Source: a virus. From it: a DNA stretch of 28,127 nucleotides. Positions within the stretch are counted from its first letter, which is position 1. The number at the start of each line of letters is the position of its first letter. Below are positions 2 through 26,744 of this stretch, one piece after another. Location of the stretch: positions 1 through 28,127 of IMG/VR virus record IMGVR_UViG_3300031963_000739, one strand, 5' to 3'. The notes beneath the pieces are model-generated. The model saw only the letters and a program-made list of their open reading frames with translations, ran no database searches and was not told the DNA's origin. The position numbers were made by a program, and so were the translations under genes.

Positions 2-3000
2 AATGTTCCAAGAGTGGCTGAACTTTATAATAATTTGTATATAGGTAATATTAATAATTACGAACCTACAATAAATAACATCTACTTCTTTGAATTAGAT
101 AGAGGAGTAAGTAATGTAAACTATCCTAAATATGAAGCATTAAGTACAGGAGATTCTCAACAATTATCAAGATCAATAGATAATTTAATAGTTGAAGAAA
201 TTAAAGCTATATATGATGAAAGAAAAGATGCTGGTTTACCTAACTTAAAAGCTACTGCATTAGGTATGTTACTATTAGAGAAGAATAGAGCTTATCTATA
301 TAATAGAATTAAACAAAGACTTCAAGATAAATTAGATGAAGAAACAACAAAGTTAGGAACTATAAAAGGTGTTCCTTTACTCAGTACATTTAAAACAAAA
401 CAAGATTTTAAAGATTATGCTGTAGCTATAATGAACAATACTAAAGGTAGAGATAAGTATGTTCTTTTAAAAAGTCAGATAGATGATTATAATTTACTTG
501 ATGCAGACTTAAAAAATGGTGATAGAGTTAAAGGAGAAAAGTGGCATTCTATAAAAATAGTAGGAGATTTTTACACACATAAAGAATTAAAAGATGTAGA
601 CATAATTGTAGTTTCAAAATATGAAGATGCTGAAATACAATTAAAAAATTACATAGAAGGTGGTGCTAAAGCATATGATAAAATTATTCCTGTAAATCCT
701 ACATTTAGTGATCAAGTACTTACTCCTGAACAAGAGGTATTATCAGATAATATTAGAATATTACAAACAGCTATTAGTAACTGGGGTAATGATTCAAAAG
801 GTGTTATTCAATACCATATGAATAATTCTGATTTTGAAATTCTTAAAAAATCAGTAGAAGTTGATATAGAAGAAGACATTGATTCAGATGATAATGTAAA
901 GGATCCTAATAATCCTGCAGAAACTCATAGAGATTCATCTAATCTTGCTGATGAAAAAAATCTTAAAACTAAATTACAAGATCTTCTAGGTAGTGAAACT
1001 AAATTTATTTTAAAATCTTTAACTAAAGTTGATTTTGAAGGTAATCCTGTAAAAGATAAATTTGGTTTTAATGAAAGAGCTGATTTTAGAAAAGTTTTTA
1101 CTCAAGTTGCAAAAACTATTGGAGGTATTCAAGATAGAAATGAAGTGTATAGACTTTTAAATGAAGAAGCAAATAAGAAAGATAAAGATGGAAATCTTAT
1201 TTTTCCAGAGCTAAATGAACTTATAGAATATAAATTACCTGATCCTAAAAATATTGGAAATAGATTTGAAGCTAAAGTAAGTTTAAGTTTCTGGCAAGAC
1301 TTCTCTAGACCACGAATTAAATATTGGAATCTACTAGGTGTACCTATTATCAAAGAAATTGATATGGGAGGTGTTTTAGAAAAGACTCCTGTAGGGTACG
1401 ATTTTATATTTACCCAATCATCTATAGAAGTATCTAGTATTATGAAAGGTTGGTTAAACCGTTATTCAACTTCTCCAAATACTAAATATCTTAAGAAGAC
1501 AGAAGATAATAAACGTGAATTAAAACTTTCCAAAATTGTACAAGAGTTTTCAAATTCTAAAGGTGAACTAGATAGAGCTAAAGATTTTGAATTTGCTAAT
1601 GCAATTGGAATTTATTTTGATGATGTTACTGCTATAAAAGATGATTTAAGTCAAAAAAGAGAATACTATGGTCTTCCATATATATTTAGAATTCTTAAAA
1701 CTTATGAGCAGATTGAACAAAACCCAAGTAATTATTCTCCTTTACAAGTAGAATCAGCTGCTAAATTTAAACAAAATCCATTAACTGTTTTAAATTCTGA
1801 AATAGGTGCAGGTATTGTAGACAAATCAGCAGTTAATCAAAAGACTCAAGTAAAAAGAATGATTGAGTTACAAGCTAAGTACGGGTATGATTCTGCTAAT
1901 TTAGGTGTATTGTTACCTAATAACAATATTGCTTATGAAAATTCAGATATGAGTGCTATGCTTGAAAAAACAAATGCATTAAACTCAGCTAAATCATTTG
2001 CAGACTTGATTAAGAGTTATCCTCACATGAGGTATTTGGATCCAAAAATAAATACATTTACTAAAAGATTAACATTACTTAATCAGTTATTTGATTTGAA
2101 TAACCCAATGGCTGAAAGAAATGATAAAACATTAGAAACAATATATATTGCAGGATTTAAACCCGAAGGAGAAGTTGGACAAGCAACTACTGAGTTAGAT
2201 CCATTAGGAAGATTCTTATTAGGATTTAGTAATGTTCTTCTAGGTGGAGTTGATGAATTACCTAGGATGTCTGAAAAGAAATCTTCTTTTGCTATAAGGT
2301 TAAAAGGTGGTCTTCAAGGGGGTGTTACTCCTACTGGTATAACAAAAGGAGATGATCTTTATTTATATGCAGATCTACCTATGTTTAGAGAAATAAGTAA
2401 AGCTAGAGAATATATATTTGAAACTCATATGCTTAACTATATTGCTGCTGAATTTGATAGACTTAAAAAGTTTAGAAATCCTAAAGAAAGACCAGACTTA
2501 TTGAAGATATCTGGTTTTAATAGACCTGTTGGTATTTCTCAAAATGGAAATGAAGTTGTAGAAGGAGATATTTTTTCAGCATTTGATACTATTTTAAGAA
2601 ACTCAACTAAAAGAGAATTATATGCTTTAGCTGATGATCAATTAGAAATGGATATAGTTGATTACATTAGACAAGATAGAGAATTATATGATAAAATATT
2701 CAATGATATAACTGAGTATTTTAATTTTCAAGCTCAATCACATATAGATTTATATTACAATAAGATACCTTTTGTATCAAAATCTATACTTGAAAAAATG
2801 TTTAATAGAGAATTGAATGATAATGAAATTCTTGATCTAAGAAAAAATACTAAAGTAATAAATAGATTGATGCAAGCTTATCTGTATAATGATTGGATAC
2901 ATAAGTTTGAAACATCTATTATACTTATGGGTGATTTTGCACAATGGAATCATTTTAAAGAAGATTGGTCTAAAAGGATTCCTGGAGTTCAGTCAAGTGG

Positions 3001-6000
3001 TTATAGTATCTTAAATGATAAAGACTGGCAGAACTACATGAAGACTGTTGAGATGACAGAAGATAAAACTTATGCAGGTAAATTATCTAAACAGTTAGAT
3101 AGAAAAGACTTAAATAATTATATTTTTTCTGAAAAAATTATTACAGGTGTAATTAAAGATGCTCAAAGAAAATCTGTTTATTTAGATGATTTAAAAGAAG
3201 CTTGGAGAGAAGCATATGAATCATATCCATCTCTTTCTAAAGAAGATATAGATAATTATGTAGAAGAAGATGCTGATGCTTATGCTAAGATGGATGAGTC
3301 TGTTGGTATTGCTTTTATTACATTTGATGCATATAGAGCTTTATCTATATCTGGTAGAAAATGGTCAGTATCTCAAGAAGATTTATTTCAAAAAATTGCT
3401 AATGGTGATAAAGTTACCCCAGCACAAGTTCTTGAAGCATTTCCTATAAGAAAATACCACTATTTTGGATCATTAGAGAATGATTTTATTGCAACTACTG
3501 CAATGCATAAATTTTCTGTAATGCCGTTAATACCTAATGGTAATGCAAAAGAAGGTTCTGAATTGTATAAATTACATTTAAAAATGTTAAAAGATAATGT
3601 TCAGTATATAACATTTGAATCAGGATCTAAAGGATCATATCTAACCGAGGACGGACAAGTTAATAACTTATTTGCTACAAAAGAAGATAAAGATCTTAAT
3701 GAAGAAGCTATTATTACTGCAAATCCTATATATCTAAATTATTTAAAAGAAGTTACCGTAATAAATGATAAACTAAAAAATGTAATTCCTATTGCAACAC
3801 AAACTCGTTTTATTATTTATGATAACCTATTTGATAATGGTAAACTAATTAATGAAAAAAATAAACCTTTAGTAGATACTTATAATACTAATGTAAAAAA
3901 TTTAACAGAACTATATAAAAGAGAACTTTTAGATGAAATAGGTTTTGAAGAGGTAGATGGTAATTATGTAGGTAATTTAAAAAGATTTGTTGAAGTTATA
4001 AGAGATGAATTAGGAAAAAGAAATGTTCCTTATCATATTCAAAAACTTGTTGATACATCACGTAAAGGTGACCATTTAAGATATGACTTATCTCTTATTC
4101 CAGAAGCAGAAAAAATAGAAAAACTTATACTTTCTATAATTCAAAATAGAATTGTTAGACAAAAAACTAAAGGTGAACCAATGGTTCAAGCACCTTCTAC
4201 ATTTACAAATGGTTTATGGGATACTCCTTTTGCAAAAGATGAAGCAGTTGCTAAAAATAAAGAATTAGAAAAAAAGTTCTTAGGTTCTAATACCCTACCC
4301 TTCTATAGAAGAGGTGAGATTATTAATAAAAAAACAGGGGAAAGATCCCCAACATACTTAGCTAAAGTTGCAATACCATTTAATGGAGATTTTGTAAACT
4401 TATTAAACTTAGAATGGCAAGGTTCTAAAATACAAACTATGGAAAGATTAAATGAACTCATTAAAACAGATGAGTTCTTAAATCAACATAGAGAAGCACT
4501 TACATTAGTAGGTCCAAGAATTCCAAATGATGCTACAAATACTATTGAAGCATTTGAAGTCTGGCATTTTGTTGATGCTTCTGTTTTAAATACTGTTATA
4601 GTACCTACAGAACTTGTTGCAAAAGCTGGATCTGACTTTGATGGTGATAAGTTATTTCTTACAATGCCTCATATTGATAAAACAGGTAAGGTAATAAATA
4701 CTGGTCCAGCAACTTATGAAGATTTTATTAATGAATATGAAAGATTAAAAGCTTTAGAAGCTGATGGAAAACTTTCTAAAGATGATTTAAAACCTAAAAA
4801 ATATCTAGAGCAAGTTAAAAAGTATTATCAAAATAAATACATTACTTCAGCAGCTAATATAATTAAGATACCTGAAAACTTTGCATATTTAACTAAACCT
4901 AATAAAACATACTTGGTACAAAAATATGTAGCTGATTTAGAGAAGGGGTCTAATCTCTATGATAGATATGATAACCCTTTCAAAATTGCAAGTATTAAAA
5001 ACAGTAAAGGGCAAAAAAGAGTTAGTCCATCTACATTATTAACTGCTGCTTATAATTTATATAAGTTTGATGCTAACTTATCTCTAGAACCTGCATTAGG
5101 TATTACAGCAAAAATTAATAAGAATCATATAATGTATAAGACATTGTCTGCACCAATGCCTTTAGTTTATAAAAAACAAGTAAATCTAGGTAATGGACTT
5201 GTAGATGAGACTATTGATGTTCCTATGCATATGAGATTTAAAGTCAATAAAATTAATATTGATGGTAAAGATCATATATCATTATCAGGAGCATATACTA
5301 GTAAAGGACCTAGAATTACTGATGTTAATTCTCATAACCTTAATGGTATTCTAGATAGAGGTAAAGAATCTTGGCCGTTTACATTACAATTATTTCCAGA
5401 AGCAATCGGGGTAATTAATTACCTAATACAGGTTGGTGTTTCAGAAGAAGAAGTATTTTACTTAATGAATCAACCATTAGTTAAACAATATATTGAAAAC
5501 ATTAGAAAATATAATAATGCATTCTCTTCTATTTTAAGTCCAGGTACATATGCTAGATTTCAAGCTAAACAAGATGCATTAAGTAATATTCCTTATACAG
5601 AACTAATTAAAGTTGGTTTCAAAGCAAATGAGTTTAAACTAAAAAGACATATTGAATTTATGTCAGGACCTATATCTGTAAGTTTTAGAGATAAAGATGG
5701 TCAAGCTATAACTCAGGAGTTTCCTAGTGTAGCAGCATTTAAGAAAAGTACTTTATTTGAAAAGAACTTACAAAAAATCAGTAGTATTTCTGATAATAAT
5801 AATGTAGTATTTAATAGAATTGATCTATCTGAAAAAAGAATATATAGCTCACTAATAAATTCTGAAAATTATGTAGAATTTGCAGAGGCTGCTTCTAAAT
5901 ATATAGGTAATACTATTACTATAGATAAATTAAAAGAAGTAAAAGATTCTAATGATATGGAATCTTTAAAAGCACTTGCTATTTTTGCTAATTATATTGA

Positions 6001-9000
6001 ACTAGAAAATCAAAAAAGTGGATTAGATAATTTCCAAATAATATCTTCTTACGATACTGATAAACTTTCTACAGTTCAACAAGTAAATAAAAGAAGACTT
6101 GGTTTACTTGGATTAAAAGAGGATTCTAAAATTGATAATAGATTTGTTGAAGAAGTAATGGAGAAATCTATTATGAAAAATTTTAATAATACAGATCTAA
6201 TAATTGACATTGCTGAGAGTGTTCTTCCTTTTAGATTACATCCTGTAACTACAGCATTTATTGAAATTACAATGTCCAATTCTAAAGTTAAAAGAAGATT
6301 TGGTGAAGGTGTAGCTGGTGAAGAAAAATTTACTAAAAATTATAATAATGCTATATTAAATAATTTATTTCAGAACAGACTTACTTATTTTTATAATGAA
6401 GATGGTATTAAAGTTACTGTTCCTGAAGAATTTCACTCAACAGCTGTAAAAATAAATAACTCTATAGAAAATGAAGTAAATATAACAGAAGACTCTATAG
6501 AAGTTAATTTAGACTTACTTACTAAGATTTATGAAAATAGAGCTTATTTAGCTAAAAACTTTACAGTAGATAAAAATTATACAGCATTAGGTTATCATAC
6601 ATTTATAGGTGGAAACTTAAATCCATTTAAAAATTTAGAACAATTTGTAAAATTTGTAATGCACAGAGAATACATTAGAAAAGATAAACCATTATCTAGT
6701 GTAAAGGATAATATAATGTATAAAAATATATTAGAGGAATCTACATCTGAAAGTGCAGCATATGAAAAGTTTCTTGCTGAAAGTGCATTATATCAAAGTT
6801 TTAACCCGGCTTATATTACAGGTACTACTACTATGTCTTATTATGACTTAGTAATGAGAACTATAATAGATAATAAAATACTAACTAATACATTCCCGGT
6901 TTTAAATTTTATTACACAAGCAACTCTTAAAAATCCAACTTTAAAATTATTTGATTTTTCTGATGGTTTAAGTGCTGATGGTGATATGGCTGATTCTTAT
7001 AAAAATCAATTAGACCAATTAGGTGATATTGACTTTTCTAAATATGCTGGTAATGAGTATAGAGAATTAAATAAACATATATCAAATGTATTTAAATACT
7101 TTTCTGAAGCTGTATATTTTCAACATGGTGTAGGTAAAAATAGATTTGGATTTGCAAATATTCTTAATGCTGAAAAATTTACTGATTTGATTAAACAACC
7201 TGTATTAAATTTTCAAAAAAATGTATTAAGTGCTGAAGATCCTTTTGCAGAATTAGACTCAATTCTACAAAGTTTATTGTCTCTTAATGAATTTAAAAAT
7301 TATACAGAAACACCTGTTGTTCAAACTGAAGTTGAAGAAGAAGATGAAGAAGGTAGTACTATTGTGTTCCCTAGTGTAAAACCAATACCAAGTGTTAAAT
7401 CTACTCAACCTACATCTAATGTTAAACCTACAATAGATTTAAGTAGAGAATGGGCAAGAGATTTAAAAACAAGACCTGTATATACTGCAGAAGGTGTAAA
7501 TACTATGCGTACTGAAGCTGCTAAAAAAGATGAACATTTTGGTAATCCTTTTAGTGAAGCAGGCTATGGAGATACTAGAAAAGTTCCTAGTATTCCAACA
7601 GCTGTACAGGCTTATAAAGATTGGTTACTTACAGGATATGCTCAATGGCTTAATGAAAATGGAGAAGCAGAAGATTTTGCAGGAAAACAAGAACAACGTC
7701 AATGGATATTAAATCAAATTAATGAAGGTAAACTAGATGGTGCCACTTTGCTTTATGCAGGTAAATCTGCAGCTAGAGGGCAAGGTATGCATCCTACAGC
7801 TTTAGCAGAAGTAGTTGAACAATTAAGAAGTAAACCTACTCAACCTACTGCAGCTCCTGTAGTGGAAGGAGTTGAAATTGGTTCCAATGCTAAAGGTCTA
7901 GCAGCAGCACTTACTAATCCTACTGAACTAGCTAAATCTAAAGGTAATCTTACTCAGTCTTATCCTATAGAATTTAATGGTAAAACATATAAAGATGTTG
8001 AATCAGCTTACCAAACATTAAAAGATAAATCTGAAGCTCAAACAAAACCTACTAAAGAAAATAGTAAAAACTATAAACTGATGGTAGATTTAATAACAGC
8101 TAAACTACAACAATATCCTAGATTAGTTTCAGAAATAACTAAACAAGGAGGTTCTGCTTGGATACTATCTTCTACTCATCAGCCTACTAAAGCAAATACA
8201 GTTTGGGAAACTGGTGGTCAAAATTGGTTTATTGAATCTCTTAATGATGCTTATTTATCTACTCAACCTACTGTAGAACCAGTAGGAGAAATTAAAGTTT
8301 TGTTAGATAAATATGGTAACTCTACACCAATTTTAGGAATAATAGATAGAAATAAAGATCTATTTAATAAAGCAAATGTTTCTGCTATTGCTTCTTTTGG
8401 TTCTGTAGTTTATGATATGGTATTACAAGATACTATAAATAATAGAAAAGGTGGAGTTGAGGGATCCAAGGAGTATATTGACAATCTTTCAGAATTTTAT
8501 AGATCAATAAGAAAAGCTTCAGGTCAAAATCCTTTTAATCCAGACTCAATAATACATGGATTTCAAATAAATCCAAAGTATAGAAACTATATAGATGCTT
8601 TTTTAGAGTATAAAGGATTACCTGCTAATACTAATGTAATATTTTTTAATGACGAAACATATAGAGGTTTTAAATTAGAATCTTTATTAATACACGAAGC
8701 TGCTCACAGTTTTGATAATCCTGGCATTGATCTATCAGATAAGCAAGTAGAGTTAATAATAAAAGCTTTTAATGAAGTTTCTAGAGATGAGAATGAATAT
8801 TACGGTATAGATAGTGGAAATTATCTAAAAAGAGAATTAGCTAAAGGTAATAAAGATGAGATTATACCTGTTCTTACTGAACTTTATATAGCAACACCAA
8901 ACCGTGGATATTATTTAAAAAATATATTATCAGAAGAACAATTTAAATTATTAGAGTCTATATTATCTACTCAATCTACTGAAGGATCTGAAGATAATTA

Positions 9001-9502
9001 TGAAATGTCTTTAGAAGAAGAATTAAGAATAAAAGAAAATGAATTAAAATTTTTAATTGAAGATTCTGAATTATCTCAAGAGAGCAGAATAGAATTAATT
9101 GTAGTAAATAATCTTAAAAAAATTACACCAGAAAGTGCTCAAAAAGAAACAGGAGGTAAGTCTGGTGTTAATAGAGATATAGATATATCTTTTTTAAATA
9201 AAAATGGTAAAACAGTAGAAGGGGCAGCTGAAGATATTTGGATGGATCTTGATGAAGGTTATCAGAATATGTATGATGTTCAAGATATTAGAAATATTAT
9301 CATAGATATTTTAATGACTGGTAAGAAAAAATATATTGAAGATTATACATCTAATTATAGGTTAATAGAAAAACTTAAACAAGAAGTTGCTCTATTAAAA
9401 GAAAGAATAAAAGAACAAACTAGAAATAAACCAACTAATAATAATTTAAACTTATTTGGTTTAGAAGGATTTAATATTCCTGATACAGGAGACACATGTT
9501 AA
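2..9502 (+). CDS. Giant virion RNA polymerase of crAss-like phage type, 5'-partial
   Basis: Single-chain DNA-dependent RNA polymerase, probably packaged in the virion and injected to transcribe early genes. The reading frame is open to the window edge (codons for N-V-P-R precede the GTG at 14), so the true start probably lies upstream. Residue numbers here count that GTG as 1. The catalytic motif D1541-F-D1543-G-D1545 sits in a stretch resembling bacterial beta' (R-I-P-N-D-A-T before it, L-F-L-T-M-P after it). An upstream stretch around F-E-S-G-S-K1206-G-S resembles the beta-like barrel that supplies catalytic lysines. Residues 1-1000 are unrecognised. From about 2460 the chain changes to acidic and Pro/Thr-rich linkers separating a DUF4326-like domain, a NADAR-like domain, an HExxH zincin (H2894) and a terminal helical domain. 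The stop is TAA. The next gene follows after 32 bases on the same strand. The RNAP call is firm; the accessory domains are less so. Confidence 0.9.
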   Translation, partial: NVPRVAELYNNLYIGNINNYEPTINNIYFFELDRGVSNVNYPKYEALSTGDSQQLSRSIDNLIVEEIKAIYDERKDAGLPNLKATALGMLLLEKNRAYLYNRIKQRLQDKLDEETTKLGTIKGVPLLSTFKTKQDFKDYAVAIMNNTKGRDKYVLLKSQIDDYNLLDADLKNGDRVKGEKWHSIKIVGDFYTHKELKDVDIIVVSKYEDAEIQLKNYIEGGAKAYDKIIPVNPTFSDQVLTPEQEVLSDNIRILQTAISNWGNDSKGVIQYHMNNSDFEILKKSVEVDIEEDIDSDDNVKDPNNPAETHRDSSNLADEKNLKTKLQDLLGSETKFILKSLTKVDFEGNPVKDKFGFNERADFRKVFTQVAKTIGGIQDRNEVYRLLNEEANKKDKDGNLIFPELNELIEYKLPDPKNIGNRFEAKVSLSFWQDFSRPRIKYWNLLGVPIIKEIDMGGVLEKTPVGYDFIFTQSSIEVSSIMKGWLNRYSTSPNTKYLKKTEDNKRELKLSKIVQEFSNSKGELDRAKDFEFANAIGIYFDDVTAIKDDLSQKREYYGLPYIFRILKTYEQIEQNPSNYSPLQVESAAKFKQNPLTVLNSEIGAGIVDKSAVNQKTQVKRMIELQAKYGYDSANLGVLLPNNNIAYENSDMSAMLEKTNALNSAKSFADLIKSYPHMRYLDPKINTFTKRLTLLNQLFDLNNPMAERNDKTLETIYIAGFKPEGEVGQATTELDPLGRFLLGFSNVLLGGVDELPRMSEKKSSFAIRLKGGLQGGVTPTGITKGDDLYLYADLPMFREISKAREYIFETHMLNYIAAEFDRLKKFRNPKERPDLLKISGFNRPVGISQNGNEVVEGDIFSAFDTILRNSTKRELYALADDQLEMDIVDYIRQDRELYDKIFNDITEYFNFQAQSHIDLYYNKIPFVSKSILEKMFNRELNDNEILDLRKNTKVINRLMQAYLYNDWIHKFETSIILMGDFAQWNHFKEDWSKRIPGVQSSGYSILNDKDWQNYMKTVEMTEDKTYAGKLSKQLDRKDLNNYIFSEKIITGVIKDAQRKSVYLDDLKEAWREAYESYPSLSKEDIDNYVEEDADAYAKMDESVGIAFITFDAYRALSISGRKWSVSQEDLFQKIANGDKVTPAQVLEAFPIRKYHYFGSLENDFIATTAMHKFSVMPLIPNGNAKEGSELYKLHLKMLKDNVQYITFESGSKGSYLTEDGQVNNLFATKEDKDLNEEAIITANPIYLNYLKEVTVINDKLKNVIPIATQTRFIIYDNLFDNGKLINEKNKPLVDTYNTNVKNLTELYKRELLDEIGFEEVDGNYVGNLKRFVEVIRDELGKRNVPYHIQKLVDTSRKGDHLRYDLSLIPEAEKIEKLILSIIQNRIVRQKTKGEPMVQAPSTFTNGLWDTPFAKDEAVAKNKELEKKFLGSNTLPFYRRGEIINKKTGERSPTYLAKVAIPFNGDFVNLLNLEWQGSKIQTMERLNELIKTDEFLNQHREALTLVGPRIPNDATNTIEAFEVWHFVDASVLNTVIVPTELVAKAGSDFDGDKLFLTMPHIDKTGKVINTGPATYEDFINEYERLKALEADGKLSKDDLKPKKYLEQVKKYYQNKYITSAANIIKIPENFAYLTKPNKTYLVQKYVADLEKGSNLYDRYDNPFKIASIKNSKGQKRVSPSTLLTAAYNLYKFDANLSLEPALGITAKINKNHIMYKTLSAPMPLVYKKQVNLGNGLVDETIDVPMHMRFKVNKINIDGKDHISLSGAYTSKGPRITDVNSHNLNGILDRGKESWPFTLQLFPEAIGVINYLIQVGVSEEEVFYLMNQPLVKQYIENIRKYNNAFSSILSPGTYARFQAKQDALSNIPYTELIKVGFKANEFKLKRHIEFMSGPISVSFRDKDGQAITQEFPSVAAFKKSTLFEKNLQKISSISDNNNVVFNRIDLSEKRIYSSLINSENYVEFAEAASKYIGNTITIDKLKEVKDSNDMESLKALAIFANYIELENQKSGLDNFQIISSYDTDKLSTVQQVNKRRLGLLGLKEDSKIDNRFVEEVMEKSIMKNFNNTDLIIDIAESVLPFRLHPVTTAFIEITMSNSKVKRRFGEGVAGEEKFTKNYNNAILNNLFQNRLTYFYNEDGIKVTVPEEFHSTAVKINNSIENEVNITEDSIEVNLDLLTKIYENRAYLAKNFTVDKNYTALGYHTFIGGNLNPFKNLEQFVKFVMHREYIRKDKPLSSVKDNIMYKNILEESTSESAAYEKFLAESALYQSFNPAYITGTTTMSYYDLVMRTIIDNKILTNTFPVLNFITQATLKNPTLKLFDFSDGLSADGDMADSYKNQLDQLGDIDFSKYAGNEYRELNKHISNVFKYFSEAVYFQHGVGKNRFGFANILNAEKFTDLIKQPVLNFQKNVLSAEDPFAELDSILQSLLSLNEFKNYTETPVVQTEVEEEDEEGSTIVFPSVKPIPSVKSTQPTSNVKPTIDLSREWARDLKTRPVYTAEGVNTMRTEAAKKDEHFGNPFSEAGYGDTRKVPSIPTAVQAYKDWLLTGYAQWLNENGEAEDFAGKQEQRQWILNQINEGKLDGATLLYAGKSAARGQGMHPTALAEVVEQLRSKPTQPTAAPVVEGVEIGSNAKGLAAALTNPTELAKSKGNLTQSYPIEFNGKTYKDVESAYQTLKDKSEAQTKPTKENSKNYKLMVDLITAKLQQYPRLVSEITKQGGSAWILSSTHQPTKANTVWETGGQNWFIESLNDAYLSTQPTVEPVGEIKVLLDKYGNSTPILGIIDRNKDLFNKANVSAIASFGSVVYDMVLQDTINNRKGGVEGSKEYIDNLSEFYRSIRKASGQNPFNPDSIIHGFQINPKYRNYIDAFLEYKGLPANTNVIFFNDETYRGFKLESLLIHEAAHSFDNPGIDLSDKQVELIIKAFNEVSRDENEYYGIDSGNYLKRELAKGNKDEIIPVLTELYIATPNRGYYLKNILSEEQFKLLESILSTQSTEGSEDNYEMSLEEELRIKENELKFLIEDSELSQESRIELIVVNNLKKITPESAQKETGGKSGVNRDIDISFLNKNGKTVEGAAEDIWMDLDEGYQNMYDVQDIRNIIIDILMTGKKKYIEDYTSNYRLIEKLKQEVALLKERIKEQTRNKPTNNNLNLFGLEGFNIPDTGDTC
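3590..4720 (+). other. RNA polymerase active-site region (two double-psi beta-barrel-like segments)
   Basis: This is a sub-region of the giant plus-strand protein. The first segment (residues about 1190-1215) has a Q-Y-I-T-F-E-S-G-S-K core like the beta-type barrel. The second (about 1495-1555) has R-I-P-N-D then E-A-F-E-V, followed by L-V-A-K-A-G-S-D-F-D-G-D. This matches, position by position, the beta' order of an R-A-P motif, a Q-A-F-E-P motif and N-A-D-F-D-G-D. The three aspartates would hold the catalytic magnesium. About 335 residues separate K1206 from D1541. Both barrels in one chain is the arrangement of YonO-like and crAss-like phage RNA polymerases. The second barrel is secure; the first rests on weaker similarity. 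Confidence 0.8.
7472..7835 (+). other. DUF4326-like domain within the vRNAP
   Basis: Residues about 2487-2608. H2508-F-G-N-P-F followed by A-Y-K-D-W-L and, at the end, G-A-T-L-L-Y-A-G-K then H-P-T-A-L-A-E-V-V. This follows the DUF4326 pattern of a G-N-P-F motif, a Y-x-x-W-L helix, a G-K-x-L-x-C strand and a C-H-x-D-V-L-A-E helix. The cysteines of typical members are absent here. The biochemical function of the family is not established. The domain is bracketed by two TQPT linkers, so it looks like a discrete module. Assignment is by motif order only. Confidence 0.5.
7849..8258 (+). other. NADAR-like domain within the vRNAP (tentative)
   Basis: Residues about 2613-2749. Features resembling the NADAR (YbiA-like) fold are an N-G-K-T-Y strand leading to E2663-S-A-Y-Q-T-L-K, a helix L-M-V-D-L-I-T-A-K-L-Q-Q-Y-P-R-L with a following G-G-S-A-W-I-L strand, and W2731-E-T-G-G-Q-N2737 before a final helix. 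In NADAR proteins the corresponding motifs are S-x-E-H-A-Y-Q-x-x-K, K-F-x-Q-N-P-x-L and W-G-x-G...G-x-N-x-x-G. Known NADAR proteins remove ADP-ribose from guanosine in nucleic acids. The similarity is partial and a distinct phage-specific family is possible. Confidence 0.4.
8272..8966 (+). other. Zincin-like metallopeptidase domain within the vRNAP
   Basis: Residues about 2754-2985. H2894-E2895-A-A-H2898 follows a hydrophobic stretch (L-E-S-L-L-I), which is the zinc-binding helix of HExxH metallopeptidases. A downstream helix, D-E2949-I-I-P-V-L-T-E2956-L-Y, could supply the third zinc ligand. The domain is flanked by TQPT and TQST linkers. Metallopeptidase domains are a recurrent part of giant polyvalent phage proteins. 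The substrate is unknown; self-processing of the virion protein or cleavage of a host protein are both possible. Confidence 0.6.
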
Positions 9503-9534: not shown

Positions 9535-12500
9535 ATGCCTTGTAGAATTAAGATAAAACAGTTTGCTGAAAAATTAGTAGAAGATCTTGCTAAAGATGGT
9601 CTTGGTAAAAGAATTGATATTGCTAAGAGATATGCTCAAAAAGTAAATGAAGATTTAACAGATTATATAAACCAATATAGACCTGCTAATGATAAAATTG
9701 AACAACTTAAAGTATTAGATTATCAAATACAAGGTGACTTTTTAAATCCTGTAATTACAATACCCAAACAGTTAATTGATCATTATTATGAATTAGAGGT
9801 TCAAAAAGAACTACAAGAATATAAAAAAGCTGAAAATCAAGCTAGATTAGTTCAGAAAGAAGATGCAAGAAGACTTGGTATTACAGATAAAGAATATACA
9901 GATAATTATCTTTTTGATGAAGTTGCAAATGAATTAAATTTTGATAGAGCACTTGAAGCTCAAAGAGATTTAGAAATTGCAGAAAAACTTGGTGAAAAAT
10001 TTAGAGAAGCTTTTAATATAAACTATTATATTATTACTCCAGATGAAGCTGCTATACTATTACAAAATAGTCCTACTCCTTTTAAATCAAATGTATCTGC
10101 ATTTTTTTATGGAAACAATGTTTATTTTGTAAAAGGTAGATTTAATTCATCTAATGTAATTCATGAGTTTGCCCATCCTTTAATTAAAGGTATAGCATAT
10201 CAAAATAAAAAACTTTTTGATAATCTATATGCTCAATTAGATTTATCTGACACAGGTAGATTAGCAAAGCAAAGAGTTCGTGATAATTATCCTGAATTAG
10301 AAGAAGGCTCTGAAAGATTTAAAGAAGAATCTTTAGTAACTGCTATGGAAATAGATGCAGAAAATAAACTTAATAACATAAAGTCTGATGATACTTTATT
10401 TAAACAGTTTATGGACAAATTAATCTATGCATTAAAGCAGGTTATTAAAAAACTAATGGGTCGAGAAATAAGACTATCTAATCTTGATTCTACTACATCA
10501 TTAAATGAGCTTGTTGATATGATGATTAATAAGGATTTTGTTATTACAGATTTGCAATATCAAAAGTCTTTATTTGCTGAAATGAAAAAAGAAACAGATG
10601 ATTTTATAAAAGCTCTTGAAAAAACAAATGCTAAAGATTTTATCCAAATAATTGATGATACTCACAGCTTTATGAAGTATCAATTAAATCTTTTAAGAAA
10701 CTCTCCTAAAAGATTAAGAGAAGAATTGCAAGAAGAAGGTGGGTTAAATGTTATTAAAAACATAAGAGACTATCTGGAACCTTTTAAAACTACAGGTTTA
10801 AATTTAACTGAAGATGATCTTAATAATATTGTCACAGCATTAGAACAAAGAGAAGGAGATTTTAGAACAAGATCTTTAGCTTTTATAAATAGTGTTAATG
10901 AAATAGATGTGTTTACAAGAAAAGTAAATGAGGTCTTAAATAATTTAAAAGAAAATAATAAACATCTAACTGTTGACGGAATTGCTAAAGTTAAATACTT
11001 TAAAAATTTACTTAAAGGAGAACAAGACTTTATTAGAAATACTATAAAGTTATTAAAGTTAGATAGTACAAATCCTTTAATTGCTAAACTATCCAGTATT
11101 AATACTCAATTAGAAAATACTATTGATCTTACTGATGAATTGACATTAGAGTTTGCTAAAGAATTTTTTATTGATAATACAGAATTAATGGCTGAAAATA
11201 TTGTTGCTGATTTTAAATCAGGAGCTCTTCAGATATTAAATAAAGAAGCTTTTTCAGAACAAGATATACAAGAGTTTTTTGAAGATATTTTTGATAAAAT
11301 AGATAATCAAAGACTAAAAAATATTACCGCGAATCAATTAAAACTTCCTAGAATACCTAAAGGAATTAAAACTTTAATGGATAGAATTCAAACTTATACC
11401 GTTAAAAGAATAACAGCTGATACTATAAGTGATTACATAGAAGGTAAAACAGAAGATCTAGGTTTACTTACAGCAATGTTTACTCCTACTGGTAATATGG
11501 ATGATCTTCTTGGCTCCGTATTTAGATATGTAAGACAAAAGTTATCTCAAACAGAGAGTGAAAGTTACAATCAGCTTAATAAAATGGCTGATCAATTAAA
11601 TCCTTTGTTTATTGCAGCAGGTGTTGATCCTACTAATACTACTGAAATGAAAAACTTTTTTCTTACAGTAGATAAAGTTCCAGATATTAACCCAGAAACA
11701 AATGAAGTTTCTGAATATGAGATTTATACCTTTATAGATAAGTTTAAAAATTGGAGATATGATCTTGCAGTATTAGAAAATAATCTTGTTATTGCTAGAA
11801 AGAAAGGTAATAAGGATGATATTAAAACTGCAATATCAGCATTGGCTGAGTTTAATGAAAAGTACATGCATAGACCTTACAAACAAGTTGTTTATGATGT
11901 AAGAAAAATATGGAATACAGATAATGAAGTATATGATCCATCAACAAAACAAACAATTACTGTATCTGCTAGTGTATCTTTGGATGCTTATATAGAAAGA
12001 CAAAAGGCACTGGAAAAATTAAGTGTTATTAATAATAACTCTGCCTGGACTGAATTAGATGATGTATTAGATTTTACACCATCTAAAGAAGCACAGATTG
12101 AGTATGATGCTTTGTATACTTTAACTTTACCAAATGGTCAATATAAATCGGGTGAAGAACTTCAAAAAGTTTTAGTAAGAAGAAAATACAGACAAGAATC
12201 TTCTAGATTTTATAAGTTTGAAACCGATCTTAATAAATATCAAAATGACTTAGATCATTTTGCTAAAGTTATTTTGCCTGCAGAAGGAGTAACATTAGAT
12301 GAAAATCCAGAAGAATTTAAAAGAAGAATAGATCAGTTTATTGCTAAAACTACACGTATATCTTATTCTGCAAAATATTTTGAAGATAAAACTAATATTC
12401 TAAATAGAATAAAAGAATTACAGGTAAGAAGTAAAAATAATCCTACTGTAAAGAAACTTAATGAACTCTATGAAGAAAGATTTAGAATTGTAAATAATGT

Positions 12501-15453
12501 TACAGATAAAGATGGTCAACCAAATGGTTTAAATTTACGAGAAGGTTCTGCTCAAAGACTTCTAGAAATAGAAGAAGAAATAATTCAATTGCAAGGAACC
12601 TTTGATAAAAAATCAGGATTAACTCCAAAAGAGTCTAAAAGACTTTTTTATTTAGAGAATTATGTATTTAAAAAAAATAGTAAAATTATACCTACTCAAA
12701 AAGACATTGATGATTTTACTAATTTAACAAATAAAAAGAATGAACTTGGTATGTCTACATTAGAAGCATCTGAGTTAAGAAAGAAATATTCTGAATTAAA
12801 TGAGTTAAGAGATATCATACCTACAGACTATTATATTACTGCTTTAAATAAAGCACTTGAAGGTACTGATATTGAACCACTTACATCAGAGACAGTTGAA
12901 GATTTTGTACGTAATAAATTAGCTATATCTGAAGCATTTGAAAAAAGTCAAGTATTTAAAGATTGGTTTTTAAGTAATCACATTGTAAGAGATGTTTGGA
13001 ATCAAGAATTAAATAATGGTGAAGGAGGATATGATACAGGATATGCACGACTAAAAGTTTGGAGTGTAGAAAGACCTAATGATGATTCTTACTATAAGAA
13101 AACTAAAATCATCAGCCCTATAACAGGAAAAGAAATTACTGTAGATGGAGCTCCAATTGCTAAATATACAAGATCATTTATTAAAGATGAGTATAGAACT
13201 ATACCTGTAGGTAAATCAGATGATTATGTAGGCACTGTTATAGATAATAGAGGTAACTATTTACCAAGAGAAGATGCTACAGATACTAAGTATCTTAACA
13301 AAGACTATTATGATATGAAGGCTTCAAATAGTCCTAAGTTTAAACTTCTTGAAAAACTAAAACAAAACTATCTTGATGTTCAAAAAGAATCTCCTTATTC
13401 ATCAAGACTTTATTTAGATTTAGCAAGATTTAGACAAAGAACAACTTTAGAATATATAAGATCTGGTCAAGGAAAACAAGAAGCAAAAGATAAACTAACT
13501 GCCGCTAAAACAGGTTTAGAGTATATTAAATCTATATTTCAACAAAAAGCAGATGATGCAGAAACATATGGGTTTAATTTAGAAGAGCATATGATGTATG
13601 TACCTACTGATTTACAAGGTAATGCATTATCTAAAGTTCCTGTAAGAGGAACATACAAACTTGATATAAAAGAAACTTCTACAGATGTTTTAAGAGCAAT
13701 GTGGGATTACATGTATTCTCTTAATGAACAAAAGACTCTAATAAAAGAAGAACCTGTAATGAATGCAATATTAGATGTGTTATCTGATGATACAAATGCT
13801 ATTAAAAGATTAGATCAAGCAAGTAGTTCTTTATTAAAAGCAACAAATAAAATTAAAAATTTAGCTAAAAATACAGACACAGATAGAAGAGTTACTGCAT
13901 TACTAGATTTTATAAATAGAACTTTTTACGGTAAAAGAGTTAGTGACTTCCAAGCTGATAATCCTTGGATTACTAAACTAACTTCTAAGTTAATGGGTTT
14001 CAGTAGTTTTGCTTTCTATTCATTAAATCCTGTATCATCAATTAAAAACCGTGGTGGTATGCAGTTCAATAAACTTATTGAAGTTGCTGGTGGTAAAAAC
14101 ATAAATGTAAAAACCATGGCACAAGGTAAGTTTAGAGCAGCAAAAGCTACATGGGAACTTGGTACTAAAGGTTATTATGCAAAAGGTGCTAAACCTTTGG
14201 ACACACAAATTATAGATAGTTTAGATTTAGTACCCGGTAAAGCAAGAACAGAATTTGGTAGAGCTTCTACAAGATCATTTGTAACAGATTTTTTTGATAG
14301 AAACTGGTTATATTCTGATAGAAAACTAATGGAAGTTAATGCTTCATTAGAATTAGGATTTGGTATGATGTATCATCAAATGGTTGATCAAATACAATCT
14401 GGTGGTTCAGTAACTCAAATTCCTTATTCTGAAGCATTTGAACTTGATCAAAATAATATTTTAAAATTAAAAGAAGGTATTAATCCTGAATGGGGTCCAA
14501 ATGCTGTAGATCATACTGTAACTACAGGAGATACTTTAGAAAGTATAGCCAAAAAATATCATATGTCTGTAGAAGAGTTAATGGCTAAAAATAAAATTAA
14601 AAAAGAAAGAGCTCTTTCAGAAGGTGAACAATTAATAATTGGTAGAAGTAAAAGATTTAATGATTTTAAGTTTAAAGTCTACGATGCTAATGTGAGATTA
14701 AATGGTTTAACTAATCAATTAGATTCACCTTTAGCTGAAAAGAACTTACTATATAATACTTTCTTCTTCTCTAGAAGATTTATCACAGGTTTGTTTTTAA
14801 ATAGATTTCAGTTTGATACCTCAAAAAATAACTTAGGGGGTGATGTATATAATTGGAATACTAATGAACTTACTAGAGGATTTTATATTGATGCTTTAAG
14901 TGCTATTAAAAAGATGTTGAAAGATGCTGATTATCTAAGACATTATATGACACCTAGAGAAAAAGCAGCATTAAAAAAGATGTTAGTTGAAACAGCTTAT
15001 ATCATAACACTTATGCTCTTAGCTGCTATTGTATTTGGATATGATGATGATGATCCAGATAGATTTAAAAAGATGAAACAAAGAGAGAAAGATTATGGTT
15101 TACAAGGTTGGGTAGCTAACCATGCTCTATATCAGGTACTAATGATACAAAAAGAAAACCAACTATTTAACCCTATTTTTGGAGCTCAGGATTGGTTAGA
15201 CTTTACAAAGTCTAGTACTATAGTTGTTCAACCTACTATAGGTAGTTTACTTAAAATAACAAAAGATTTGTTTTATTTAGTAACAGGTGATGAATCAGCA
15301 TACTATGCTCAAGATGTAGGTCCTTATGATTGGCAAGAAAAAGAATCTGCAAAAGTTCTGAATCATTTCCTATCTTCATTAGGATTTACAGGTAAAAACT
15401 ATTCACCTATTTGGGCAATTAAAAAGAAAGAACAATTTGAAAATTTAAGATAA
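9535..15453 (+). CDS. Giant virion-type protein with zincin, LysM domain and membrane segment
   Basis: A 1972-residue protein that probably accompanies the vRNAP in the virion. The N-terminal part has H210-E-F-A-H214 after a strand and a helix carrying E264/E265 that could complete a zinc site, so it is a zincin-like metallopeptidase. The middle (about 330-1350) is long, charged and mostly helical with coiled-coil character and no recognisable enzyme motif. A LysM domain starts at H1660 (T-V-T-T-G-D-T-L-E-S-I-A, then L-I-I-G), which would bind peptidoglycan. A hydrophobic segment at about 1819-1838 (A-Y-I-I-T-L-M-L-L-A-A-I-V-F-G) looks membrane-spanning and is followed by an acidic D-D-D-D run. 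LysM plus a membrane segment fits a protein ejected through the cell envelope. The ATG is 32 bases after the vRNAP stop and is preceded by an A-rich AAAGAAG. The next gene starts one base after its TAA. Confidence 0.85.
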   Translation: MPCRIKIKQFAEKLVEDLAKDGLGKRIDIAKRYAQKVNEDLTDYINQYRPANDKIEQLKVLDYQIQGDFLNPVITIPKQLIDHYYELEVQKELQEYKKAENQARLVQKEDARRLGITDKEYTDNYLFDEVANELNFDRALEAQRDLEIAEKLGEKFREAFNINYYIITPDEAAILLQNSPTPFKSNVSAFFYGNNVYFVKGRFNSSNVIHEFAHPLIKGIAYQNKKLFDNLYAQLDLSDTGRLAKQRVRDNYPELEEGSERFKEESLVTAMEIDAENKLNNIKSDDTLFKQFMDKLIYALKQVIKKLMGREIRLSNLDSTTSLNELVDMMINKDFVITDLQYQKSLFAEMKKETDDFIKALEKTNAKDFIQIIDDTHSFMKYQLNLLRNSPKRLREELQEEGGLNVIKNIRDYLEPFKTTGLNLTEDDLNNIVTALEQREGDFRTRSLAFINSVNEIDVFTRKVNEVLNNLKENNKHLTVDGIAKVKYFKNLLKGEQDFIRNTIKLLKLDSTNPLIAKLSSINTQLENTIDLTDELTLEFAKEFFIDNTELMAENIVADFKSGALQILNKEAFSEQDIQEFFEDIFDKIDNQRLKNITANQLKLPRIPKGIKTLMDRIQTYTVKRITADTISDYIEGKTEDLGLLTAMFTPTGNMDDLLGSVFRYVRQKLSQTESESYNQLNKMADQLNPLFIAAGVDPTNTTEMKNFFLTVDKVPDINPETNEVSEYEIYTFIDKFKNWRYDLAVLENNLVIARKKGNKDDIKTAISALAEFNEKYMHRPYKQVVYDVRKIWNTDNEVYDPSTKQTITVSASVSLDAYIERQKALEKLSVINNNSAWTELDDVLDFTPSKEAQIEYDALYTLTLPNGQYKSGEELQKVLVRRKYRQESSRFYKFETDLNKYQNDLDHFAKVILPAEGVTLDENPEEFKRRIDQFIAKTTRISYSAKYFEDKTNILNRIKELQVRSKNNPTVKKLNELYEERFRIVNNVTDKDGQPNGLNLREGSAQRLLEIEEEIIQLQGTFDKKSGLTPKESKRLFYLENYVFKKNSKIIPTQKDIDDFTNLTNKKNELGMSTLEASELRKKYSELNELRDIIPTDYYITALNKALEGTDIEPLTSETVEDFVRNKLAISEAFEKSQVFKDWFLSNHIVRDVWNQELNNGEGGYDTGYARLKVWSVERPNDDSYYKKTKIISPITGKEITVDGAPIAKYTRSFIKDEYRTIPVGKSDDYVGTVIDNRGNYLPREDATDTKYLNKDYYDMKASNSPKFKLLEKLKQNYLDVQKESPYSSRLYLDLARFRQRTTLEYIRSGQGKQEAKDKLTAAKTGLEYIKSIFQQKADDAETYGFNLEEHMMYVPTDLQGNALSKVPVRGTYKLDIKETSTDVLRAMWDYMYSLNEQKTLIKEEPVMNAILDVLSDDTNAIKRLDQASSSLLKATNKIKNLAKNTDTDRRVTALLDFINRTFYGKRVSDFQADNPWITKLTSKLMGFSSFAFYSLNPVSSIKNRGGMQFNKLIEVAGGKNINVKTMAQGKFRAAKATWELGTKGYYAKGAKPLDTQIIDSLDLVPGKARTEFGRASTRSFVTDFFDRNWLYSDRKLMEVNASLELGFGMMYHQMVDQIQSGGSVTQIPYSEAFELDQNNILKLKEGINPEWGPNAVDHTVTTGDTLESIAKKYHMSVEELMAKNKIKKERALSEGEQLIIGRSKRFNDFKFKVYDANVRLNGLTNQLDSPLAEKNLLYNTFFFSRRFITGLFLNRFQFDTSKNNLGGDVYNWNTNELTRGFYIDALSAIKKMLKDADYLRHYMTPREKAALKKMLVETAYIITLMLLAAIVFGYDDDDPDRFKKMKQREKDYGLQGWVANHALYQVLMIQKENQLFNPIFGAQDWLDFTKSSTIVVQPTIGSLLKITKDLFYLVTGDESAYYAQDVGPYDWQEKESAKVLNHFLSSLGFTGKNYSPIWAIKKKEQFENLR

Positions 15454-22809: not shown

Positions 22810-23979
22810 TTACTTTACAGCCATCTTCACCACGTCTTGATTCATCATGAGCTGACTGAATCGAACTTTGTTTCCATTAACTATCTCTTTGACCATATAA
22901 TATCTAAGGTCATTAGTAAATGCATCACAGTCTGTAGTAAGTTTAGCTATCCTATCAATAATTGGTTTACTTACTGATCCTTTGTCAGCTAAAGTAAGTG
23001 AATAGTTAATTATCCTGGTTGCAATAACACTTGAGATATCAGCACGAAACTCATCATCTTTACCTACTGCATTAGTAAGAGAGTTCATAACATACTGCTC
23101 ATCTTTGGTCAAGATATCTTCAGGACTAATGATTCTATCTAGTTTATTATTAATAAACATAGTAAACATTGAACTAAAATCTGTTCCAACAGAACCTTCA
23201 CCAATCATTTGAATTAATGGTAAGTCTGCCTCAAACTTATCAATAGAACTAATTGCATTAAAGAATGTAGTAATAGATCTTGGATTAACTCTTTGAGTTA
23301 CCAATTCTGGGTGCATCAACATAAAATTAATACATCTACCATCTATGTTTGCTTTCTCTGCCCACTTAGCCCATACATCAGAATCATATTTCATTTCAAC
23401 AGAAATAAATCTAGTCTTTTGAGCTACGTCAAGACTAGTAACATTATAGTCACCATTATCTGGGTTAGTAGTCAAGATAACATGCCAGTTCTTTGGTAAC
23501 TTCCAAGATACATATTCTTGTCTATCTAGAATCTCCATAGTTGCTTGCATAAATCTTGCATCGGCACGAGTATAGTCATCAAGAATTAAAAAACCACCCT
23601 CACCTTTACCCTGAATCCACTCAGGAGCAGCATGTGACATTCTCTTATCTACAACTTTATAACCTTTTGCACTAGCTGCATTTATCTGAGATTCATTAAT
23701 CCAAGTAGTTTTACCTTCTGCATTCTGGATCTGGAATTCTTTAACAGGAAAACCTACTAAATCACCTAATTCTTCCAACTGAGATAAATTCAGTTTTACA
23801 ACTTCCATAGAAAGTTCTTTACCTAACTGCATGATTGCAGAAGTTTTACCAAGACCAGCATCACCCTCAATATTAATTGCCACAGGTACTTTACCTTCAG
23901 CTTGAATATGTTGGTTATTCTTAACCATGTGCTTAATAAAATTCTTTAATTCTTCAACATTTAATTGTACTTGATTCAT
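22810..23979 (-). CDS. MoxR-type AAA+ ATPase
   Basis: A 389-residue AAA+ ATPase. Walker A is G39-D-A-G-L-G-K45-T-S, Walker B is F-L-I-L-D134-D135-Y, sensor 1 is T-T-N172-P-D-N, and A-Q-K-T-R190-F fits the MoxR arginine-finger position. V-N-P-R-S-I-T is a plausible sensor 2. A lid domain follows. MoxR ATPases act as chaperones with a VWA-domain partner, remodelling or loading metal into target complexes. Exactly such a partner lies ten bases upstream (23990-25171), so the two probably form a functional pair. The ATG has an A-rich leader (AAAAAAAAGATT). It is the last gene of the primase-led block, and a hairpin follows. Confidence 0.9.
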   Translation of the reverse strand: MNQVQLNVEELKNFIKHMVKNNQHIQAEGKVPVAINIEGDAGLGKTSAIMQLGKELSMEVVKLNLSQLEELGDLVGFPVKEFQIQNAEGKTTWINESQINAASAKGYKVVDKRMSHAAPEWIQGKGEGGFLILDDYTRADARFMQATMEILDRQEYVSWKLPKNWHVILTTNPDNGDYNVTSLDVAQKTRFISVEMKYDSDVWAKWAEKANIDGRCINFMLMHPELVTQRVNPRSITTFFNAISSIDKFEADLPLIQMIGEGSVGTDFSSMFTMFINNKLDRIISPEDILTKDEQYVMNSLTNAVGKDDEFRADISSVIATRIINYSLTLADKGSVSKPIIDRIAKLTTDCDAFTNDLRYYMVKEIVNGNKVRFSQLMMNQDVVKMAVK

Positions 23980-23989
23980 AATCTTTTTT

Positions 23990-25171
23990 TTATAATTCTA
24001 ATTTAATAACTCTACCTGGTAATTCTTCATTCATATATGATCTTTCAGATAAAACCCACAAAGTATTACCTTTAGGTTTTACTCTTGTATAACACTCACC
24101 ATCAGTAAAATACACCAGGCTAGTATATTTTTTCAGATTAGCATTAAAATATTCTAGGACAGGGTCAAATTCAGTTCCACCCCTACCTTGTACAGCCATT
24201 TCAAATTTACCTTTGTAAGGTTCAATTGATCTAATAGTTGTATCACATTGTATTACAGTAATATCAACCCCGCACTTATAGATATGATAAATTTCACTCA
24301 TAAATTCTTGAAGCTCATTATCACTTACAGATCCTGAAGTATCAATAGCCAACAACATATGTTGTCTCATTTTTACTTTTAGACCGGGGTTATCACTAAA
24401 TCTGCGGTTCTCTTTTCTTCTGATTTTCTTAGTAAATACTTTTGTACTTACCCCAGTAAATCTTCTAATATAACCCCGCCAATTAAATTTAGGTTTAACA
24501 ATCTCTTCAATAATAATTACTCCTTCAATTTCTCCAGGAACAGTACCTCTTTTCTTAATAGTTTGTTCTTTAGCATCACTAAGAACTTTCTGTAATTGTT
24601 TTTCAATTAACTTTTTCTCAGCTTCAGTCATATCTTCAAACTCTTCCCATGTAGCATGATCATCTGTTTCACCATTTTCTATAGCATCTAACAAATTATC
24701 CATAGGTGCATTACCACAAGTACCATTTTGATTTTTCTTATCTTGAAGTTCTTTTAACTTGTCATAGTAATATCTACAACCAGCTTTTTTGTCAAGATTT
24801 AGTTCAGCATAATTATCAATGTCAATACCACCATCGGGTAGATATTCTTTAGATATATACTGATTGATCTCCATATCCATTGCAACATTTGCAAGTCTCT
24901 TATCACTAAACTTAAAGAAAGTAGTAAGATGTCCAAATGCAATATGTAACAATTCATGTTTTAATAATCCAAGTCTGTGGTTATCACTTAAAGATTCCCA
25001 AAACTCAGGATTAATAGCAAGCTGATAATTAATACCATTCTTGCTAACTCCGGCAGTAGGAACTTTCTGACCCCAGACTTTATTTAGAGCAATAAGAAAG
25101 AACCCATAGTAGGGCTCTTTCAACATTAGCTCTTTACCAATTTTACTAAGACTCTCTTGTCTGTCCATCAT
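23990..25171 (-). CDS. VWA-domain protein with N-terminal metallopeptidase-like domain (DUF2201 type)
   Basis: A 393-residue protein in two parts. The N-terminal domain has L-K-H72-E73-L-L-H76-I-A-F-G-H and, 23 residues on, A-N-V-A-M-D99-M-E-I-N, the HExxH-plus-Asp layout of the putative metallopeptidase domain of DUF2201 proteins. After a charged, helical linker (140-230) comes a VWA domain with a complete MIDAS: D277-T-S279-G-S281, T333 in G-G-T-E-F-D and D357 in F-T-D-G-E. The VWA part binds Mg and presumably a target protein. The downstream MoxR-type ATPase is its expected partner. The 5' end overlaps the upstream gene by 26 bases, indicating translational coupling. Whether the protease-like site is active is unknown. 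Confidence 0.88.
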   Translation of the reverse strand: MMDRQESLSKIGKELMLKEPYYGFFLIALNKVWGQKVPTAGVSKNGINYQLAINPEFWESLSDNHRLGLLKHELLHIAFGHLTTFFKFSDKRLANVAMDMEINQYISKEYLPDGGIDIDNYAELNLDKKAGCRYYYDKLKELQDKKNQNGTCGNAPMDNLLDAIENGETDDHATWEEFEDMTEAEKKLIEKQLQKVLSDAKEQTIKKRGTVPGEIEGVIIIEEIVKPKFNWRGYIRRFTGVSTKVFTKKIRRKENRRFSDNPGLKVKMRQHMLLAIDTSGSVSDNELQEFMSEIYHIYKCGVDITVIQCDTTIRSIEPYKGKFEMAVQGRGGTEFDPVLEYFNANLKKYTSLVYFTDGECYTRVKPKGNTLWVLSERSYMNEELPGRVIKLEL

Positions 25172-26318: not shown

Positions 26319-26744
26319 TTATTTGATTTTGTAAAACCTACCTAGAATGTTTCCATTTAGGTATTCTTCTTTTTCAAGTACTTCATACAAGAACTGATGT
26401 TTAGTTTCCTGATATGTAAGCTCCATCTGAGTATTACATATCCTAAGAATTTCTCTTTTGATAGGTACTCCAGCTTTGTGAGCATCTTTAAGAACTTTAT
26501 TACTACTGTAATACTTCATAAAGTCAGGTTTCAGTTCCCGCTTGTACTTTTTTAACCTTTTATCAGTAGACATAGCCAGTGCTTTTTTACCAAGAGGTCT
26601 CTTGATATTAGCAAAGAAGTTCTTCTTTCCTATATAAGCAACTGATTTACCATCTATGATAGCAGTCATAATATAAATGAACCCTACGGCCCCTGCAGGA
26701 ATATCCAATTCCTCAAATGTTTTACCTTGATAGATCCAACTCAT
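26319..26744 (-). CDS. SegE-type GIY-YIG endonuclease
   Basis: A 141-residue predicted DNA endonuclease. It has G21-F-I-Y24 and A-Y37-I-G39-K-K for the GIY-YIG core, F-M-K-Y-Y-S-S, then I-K-R97-E-I-L-R-I-C, L-T-Y-Q-E113-T-K-H-Q-F and a closing Y-L-N130-G-N-I-L-G-R-F. R97 and E113 fit the catalytic Arg and metal-binding Glu. This is the layout of phage T4 Seg-like endonucleases. There is no added DNA-binding domain, as in the short SegE-like members. It overlaps the coiled-coil gene by 23 bases and lies two bases from the next one. This is tight integration in a replication block rather than a free-standing insertion, suggesting a fixed role or an old acquisition. Confidence 0.8.
   Translation of the reverse strand: MSWIYQGKTFEELDIPAGAVGFIYIMTAIIDGKSVAYIGKKNFFANIKRPLGKKALAMSTDKRLKKYKRELKPDFMKYYSSNKVLKDAHKAGVPIKREILRICNTQMELTYQETKHQFLYEVLEKEEYLNGNILGRFYKIK

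Follow-up and report, generated by a model that had tools for sequence, protein, structure and literature searches.

A LysM domain as an optional cassette in a giant phage protein related to RNA polymerase-associated proteins of crAss-like phages

The closest described systems are found in crAss-like phages. According to PMC10172136, mass spectrometry of crAss001 virions revealed gp49 and the other RNA polymerase (RNAP)-associated proteins, and gp45 and gp46, not gp49, are proposed as the channel formers; the annotation of gp65 in the record of phage phi14:2 likewise rests on tandem mass spectrometry (MS/MS) proteomics. A giant virion RNAP (vRNAP) is also described for phage N4, and the excerpted text of the preprint PMC12633501 gives this protein (gp50) a C-terminal domain consisting of an HExxH-bearing part (the C1 domain) and a mostly helical part. 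Here we study a 28,127-nucleotide stretch of viral DNA (IMG/VR record IMGVR_UViG_3300031963_000739, positions 1 to 28,127; hereafter the window) and the giant protein P0001 that it encodes, in which a LysM domain is followed by a hydrophobic helix. With moderate confidence, we read P0001 as an environmental counterpart of gp49 and gp65 in which LysM serves as an auxiliary peptidoglycan tether for ejected vRNAP cargo and the helix contacts the inner membrane. The features of P0001 on which this reading turns are as follows.

9535..15453, + strand: P0001, 1972 amino acids, a distant homologue of crAss001 gp49 and phi14:2 gp65 (virion RNAP-associated protein)
14212..15450, + strand: C-terminal module holding the inserted LysM, residues 1560-1972 (alignment of 69 rows; structure model)
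14512..14640, + strand: LysM domain, residues 1660-1702 (PF01476 match; LysM fold in the model)
14980..15036, + strand: hydrophobic helix MLVETAYIITLMLLAAIVF, residues 1816-1834 (Kyte-Doolittle 19-mer mean 2.26)
15043..15060, + strand: acidic run DDDDPD, residues 1837-1842, within the family motif FG(Y/F/W)DxxD(E/D)(D/E)(R/K)(F/W/Y) (column counts over 109 rows)

The relationship to gp49 and gp65 emerges from profile comparison. When eight proteins are aligned with a 69-row profile of the P0001 family (hhalign), four match, namely crAss001 gp49 (probability 98.3, E 1.5e-14), phi14:2 gp65 (97.3, 1.9e-11), cr118_1 QOR58374.1 (99.7, 2e-25) and Lbo-JY46 XAI97381.1 (98.3, 2.4e-14), and there is no match for crAss001 gp50, gp47 and gp46 or for the protein upstream of the Lbo-JY46 homologue. 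Direct searches of named phages with tblastn give nothing for P0001 itself at 1e-5; at a limit of E 5 they return 32 records, the best being Lbo-JY46 (4e-3) and most of the others LysM-only matches to endolysins. Scans of IMG/VR supply relatives at 89% down to roughly 23% identity, and one of them, L030, reaches crAss001 directly inside the gp49 gene (E 3e-4, among 11 matches) as well as cr85_1 (5e-5) and cr128_1 (1e-4), both annotated 'putative RNA-polymerase subunit'; two other relatives, L037 (two weak matches) and L023 (two records of cr118_1), give weak or short matches only. The structure model of the C-terminal module (predicted local distance difference test, pLDDT, 75.5; predicted template modelling score, pTM, 0.62) finds 12 matches in BFVD (E <= 1e-3); eight are named, and five of these eight come from crN or CrAss-like phages; cr111_1 'putative RNA-polymerase subunit' and phi17:2 'structural protein' are among the matches. 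P0001 is thus a homologue of RNAP-associated proteins that crAss-like phages package in the virion and presumably eject, detection in virions coming from the homologues alone. One family member belongs to a cyanobacterial phage, Leptolyngbya phage Lbo-JY46 (L086), which carries its C-terminal homologue of the crAss gp49 family in a 2748-residue protein.

The gene order points the same way, since P0001 lies directly downstream of a vRNAP-like gene on the same strand, starting at 9535 where its neighbour ends at 9502.

2..9502, + strand: P0002, vRNAP-like protein, at least 3166 amino acids, 5' end beyond the window, with DFDGD at residue 1545 (nucleotide 4634)

The earlier note on this DNA had placed P0001 beside a vRNAP, and this is borne out by the DFDGD motif and by matches of P0002 to crAss-like RNAP proteins: its last 2666 amino acids (residue 501 onward) reach, by tblastn, a cr4_1 'hypothetical protein' (E 2e-12), the crAss002 'putative RNAP catalytic subunit' (1e-6) and the crAss001 'putative RNA polymerase' (3e-3). 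The arrangement recurs among relatives, where a same-strand open reading frame (ORF) of at least 600 amino acids ends no more than 400 nucleotides upstream of the homologue in 81 of the 83 loci with at least 3 kb of upstream sequence, a count of frames whose RNAP identity is not shown for each. A crAss001-like major capsid protein occurs in 29/33 large relative records, that of L002 included (E 6.2e-7); the 28-kb window record falls outside that set. Stretches of P0002 that by eye seemed NADAR-like and DUF4326-like have no Pfam support, and near its C-terminus lies an HExxH motif, HEAAH (residue 2898, 8693-8707).

The same note had proposed a LysM domain near residue 1660, a hydrophobic stretch about 115 residues beyond it and a run of acidic residues, and all three stand, with coordinates and spacing correct. 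PF01476 matches residues 1660-1702 over profile positions 1-42 of 43 (E 4.7e-11) and clears its cut-off of 20.9 bits with a score of 42.9. In the C-terminal model the segment forms strand-helix-helix-strand (strands 99-102 and 140-144, helices 109-115 and 120-126 in model numbering) at block pLDDT 83-89. Its best solved-structure neighbours are LysM domains, for example 4uz2_B (Z 8.4, root-mean-square deviation 1.5 A, 49 residues), and by sequence and fold it comes closest to LysM proteins that bind cell wall or chitin (LytE, Ecp6, 4uz2/4uz3).

We now consider how LysM is distributed over the family. From 133 loci we set aside the window itself (L003) and the named phages (L084-L087), dropped L075 and L083 as fragments short of the C-terminus and merged 18 loci that duplicate a retained locus throughout the last 1100 residues, which leaves 108 homologues, or 109 rows with the window; because near-copies remain among them, row counts are not independent, and because the relatives searched were the best 80 of 109 and the best 80 of 272, counts lean to close relatives bearing the N-terminal motif HEFAHP discussed below. 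Going by aligned length and visual inspection, LysM is canonical in 63 rows, interrupted in six and cleanly absent from 40. The flanks of the site, 'LKxGIdpeW' and 'KFxxxKNr', are continuous in the alignment, and the stretch between these anchors spans 25-38 residues in rows lacking LysM, 72-77 in rows with a canonical copy and 123-130 where it is interrupted. Among the first 69 rows this classing gives 42 with a whole or interrupted LysM, where Pfam (E <= 0.05) detects 41. A PF01476 search of 48 whole records (E <= 0.01) matches 29, 27 of them over the cut-off, and in every matching record the P0001 homologue bears a LysM match. The other 19 records (15 from IMG/VR, which may be fragments, and four named) have no PF01476 match anywhere in the record. 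Two of the 48 carry further matches below the cut-off, and the sole extra one above it is a second LysM in the record of L026 (G015:C1:45639-45770, 41.7 bits), in a separate ORF of 1607 amino acids. In the interrupted copies (L036, L043, L055, L066, L080 and L114) the first half aligns and, judged by eye, some 50 charge-rich residues then precede the final strand. Phage_lysozyme2, searched in 32 relative records, gives one match and no link to LysM.

On the full-set tree canonical LysM fills one clade of 59 rows (Shimodaira-Hasegawa-like approximate likelihood ratio test, SH-aLRT, 97), every one of which keeps it, and reappears in four rows of a 19-row clade that also contains nine LysM-less rows and the six interrupted ones, the latter forming one supported clade; three changes of state are needed. 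A single clade of all LysM carriers is rejected in an approximately unbiased (AU) test on 40 representative rows (p-AU 8.56e-5), a result to be read with the long branches that meet in the full-set tree and with the test having used a quick tree and been run after the full-set tree was viewed. Because of this rejection, either LysM entered this one site on two or more occasions, or it was both gained and lost. Once present, the domain is under purifying selection, the ratio of nonsynonymous to synonymous substitution rates (dN/dS) being 0.06-0.40 in 13/13 non-overlapping pairs (taken greedily from 47; in four of the 13 the LysM dS exceeds 1, near saturation).

The hydrophobic helix behaves differently from LysM. 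In P0001 it is the top Kyte-Doolittle 19-mer (2.26, next best 0.86) and begins 114 residues past the end of LysM, and in 105 of 108 homologues the 19-mer with the highest hydrophobicity in the whole ORF falls in the segment aligned to it, which makes the stretch more than chance. The best 19-mer of the segment reaches at least 1.6 in 57/63 rows with LysM, 4/6 with an interrupted one and 35/40 without; for comparison, the best 19-mers are 1.28 in P0002 and 1.25, 1.57 and 0.53 in crAss001 gp50, gp47 and gp46. The core of the helix is free of charge in 104/109 rows, and in the acidic motif D1840 is D in 108/109. The membrane-like helix and the acidic motif are therefore a family-wide core, kept with or without LysM, and LysM is the cassette. 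A likeness of the hydrophobic-acidic motif to an LPD38-type polyvalent domain was rejected, such a domain not being among the 14 Pfam families found in 69 family members, where a single LPD39 match (E 0.05) appeared.

These observations suggest the following course of events. A P0001-type giant protein would be packaged with the vRNAP and delivered into the cell at infection, and in some lineages LysM has been inserted into a loop of its C-terminal module. As the ejected protein crosses the periplasm, LysM may bind the glycan strands of peptidoglycan and so hold or position the vRNAP cargo at the wall, and the hydrophobic helix would contact the inner membrane. Because LysM-less relatives persist, such a tether would be an auxiliary adaptation rather than the conduit itself; LysM is most likely auxiliary, and peptidoglycan tethering after ejection, as a function not essential to the family, is plausible. 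One can go further and imagine LysM pinning the RNAP-associated protein in the wall and the helix fixing it in the inner membrane, together an anchor for a vRNAP that reels in the genome by early transcription, the tether having been added to that loop more than once in adapting to the host wall, but we regard this extension as doubtful.

A number of results weigh against a LysM tether. First, LysM is missing from 40/109 environmental rows and from 4/4 named-phage homologues; the earlier note had itself singled out homologues lacking LysM as what would undo its proposal, and in part this is what we find, so that peptidoglycan anchoring cannot be the core function of the family. Second, the dN/dS of LysM is higher than that of the stretch just upstream in 10 of the 13 pairs, and LysM is therefore constrained, yet less so than its neighbourhood. 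Third, the hydrophobic stretch cannot be called statistically striking alone, as 77 of 2000 shuffles of P0001 reach its hydrophobicity, and its core, bounded by E/D columns and G columns, is 14-16 residues long, which is short for a membrane span. Fourth, in 99/109 rows the helix is preceded by 30 residues of more positive charge than the 30 that follow (79/109 rows when 15 residues are taken), which under the positive-inside rule favours a cytoplasmic location for the N-terminal (LysM) side, opposite to a periplasmic LysM; we take this as a caution and not a refutation, because the rule may fail for a protein entering from outside. Fifth, two scans of one-per-species genomes in search of a host gave 141 and 8 pattern matches, none of them a relative. 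Finally, the fold neighbours of the LysM segment also include injection-system and phage baseplate proteins (7b5h, 7aeb, 6j0n, 6rbk and 9eui), at middling Z values of 5.9-7.0.

It is because of these baseplate domains that structural docking is the chief rival to the tether: LysM could mediate docking between proteins, either inside the virion or as part of the RNAP complex, and make no contact with peptidoglycan, as in contractile injection baseplates. Insertion at one site would suit such a role, the flank charges would leave LysM in the cytoplasm together with the RNAP, and purifying selection is compatible with either role. However, the canonical PF01476 match and the wall- or chitin-binding character of the best sequence and fold matches argue for the tether, and coming and going is more readily expected of a cassette with an accessory binding role than of an interface fixed in assembly. 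We therefore treat docking as a tentative but serious alternative, with a lower probability than peptidoglycan tethering.

The full model of the earlier note makes the protein itself a trans-envelope DNA conduit, held in the wall by LysM and in the inner membrane by the helix, comparable to the internal virion proteins of podophages such as T7. In its favour stand the homology to virion cargo, the family-wide hydrophobic helix and LysM, together with the proposal, in the excerpted N4 preprint (PMC12633501), that the N4 vRNAP stays membrane-anchored as part of the ejectosome. Yet LysM is dispensable across the family, and on this pattern of presence and absence we reject it as proof of a conduit; the charge bias opposes a periplasmic LysM, and the crAss001 authors, in the excerpts of PMC10172136, assign the channel to other proteins (gp45/gp46). 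A conduit is possible, but it goes beyond the evidence and we consider it unlikely. What survives of the ejected protein anchored in wall and membrane is the virion-protein homology and the family-wide membrane-like helix; a peptidoglycan anchor as the core of the family does not, and the flank charges run opposite to it.

Quite apart from the C-terminal module, P0001 carries a conserved domain near its N-terminus.

9892..10464, + strand: zincin-like domain, residues ~120-310, with HEFAHP at 210-215 (10162-10179) and E265 (10327-10329)

P0001 has the gluzincin signature of HExxH and a downstream Glu ligand (HEFAHP, E265). HE(F/Y)xHP is found in 104 of 105 homologues, the exception (L125) being cut off by the end of its contig, and E265 is conserved in 106/106 rows, the window included; the remaining three of the 108 homologues (L094, L103 and L119) gave no N-terminal match, and although one of the zincin search patterns was HEFAHP[LF], 34 of the 104 carry another variant. 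For the domain model (pLDDT 79.5) Foldseek gives nothing at E <= 0.001 and ranks proteins other than zincins first; a second structure comparison puts gluzincin metallopeptidases on top (Z at most 7.3) and Pro-Pro endopeptidases lower down. LysM domains often accompany wall-acting enzymes, and many of the 28 sequence matches of this LysM are such enzymes, raising the question of whether LysM aims the zincin-like domain, so that the protein, bound to the wall, acts at entry as a peptidase on peptidoglycan cross-links or on envelope proteins of the host. The conserved motif and the zincin-like model agree with this idea, but roughly 1400 residues separate the two domains, HExxHP is equally conserved in rows with or without LysM, the fold match is weak, and Pfam finds no convincing peptidase match in 93 family members (93 of the 106 rows of the N-terminal alignment). 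A LysM-guided peptidase is thus, if anything, slightly less probable than a conduit. A neutral passenger insertion, which would fit the patchy distribution, the single loop that accepts LysM and dN/dS values above those of the upstream stretch, is highly improbable, being already disfavoured by the low ratios in all 13 pairs and by the retention of LysM throughout the deep 59-row clade.

Elsewhere in the window, 23990-25171 (minus strand) holds a DUF2201-type putative metallopeptidase plus VWA-like protein, beside which the gene at 22810-23979 appears AAA-like by eye only, and 26319-26744 encodes a SegE-like GIY-YIG endonuclease (PF19835, E 2.2e-22).

A putative wall-binding cassette that is gained or lost provides matched LysM-plus and LysM-minus relatives, and the contribution of peptidoglycan binding to cargo entry is therefore directly testable. 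It is a modest clue to how crAss-like phages bring their giant virion RNA polymerases through the envelope. Among the papers listed in the open-licence PMC library on LysM together with crAss-like phages or ejection proteins, no title reports a LysM in a crAss-like RNAP-associated protein, subscription papers and other preprints being outside that scope.

How does P0001 compare with known systems? The T7 ejection proteins (gp14/gp15/gp16) are not among the solved-structure matches listed, no direct comparison having been made. The N4 vRNAP (gp50) and its ejection partners are likened to our system as a giant vRNAP system by description alone, with no homology claimed, and the word 'lysm' occurs 0 times in the excerpted preprint (PMC12633501). 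The LysM of P0001 resembles that of the Thermus thermophilus NlpC/P60 endopeptidase (4uz2/4uz3; LysM / CBM50, PF01476) in sequence profile and fold but, unlike it, sits inside a giant phage virion-type protein with no recognised wall hydrolase attached. The cr118_1 (QOR58374.1) and Lbo-JY46 (XAI97381.1) homologues share the hydrophobic-acidic motif in the profile alignment but are without LysM; the 2748-residue Lbo-JY46 protein has two HExxH motifs and the cr118_1 homologue none. The closest counterparts, crAss001 gp49 (1349 amino acids) and phi14:2 gp65 (1421), are shorter than P0001 and lack LysM, and HExxH is absent from gp49 and present at residue 245 of gp65. Like P0001, however, both are encoded next to the vRNAP catalytic gene and in its orientation; they are homologous to P0001 by profile over the C-terminal ~500 residues and have their best hydrophobic 19-mer at the matching place: in gp65 the profile alignment stops where the hydrophobic-acidic segment starts and the best 19-mer lies just there, and in gp49 the hydrophobic helix is followed, as in P0001, by the acidic motif.

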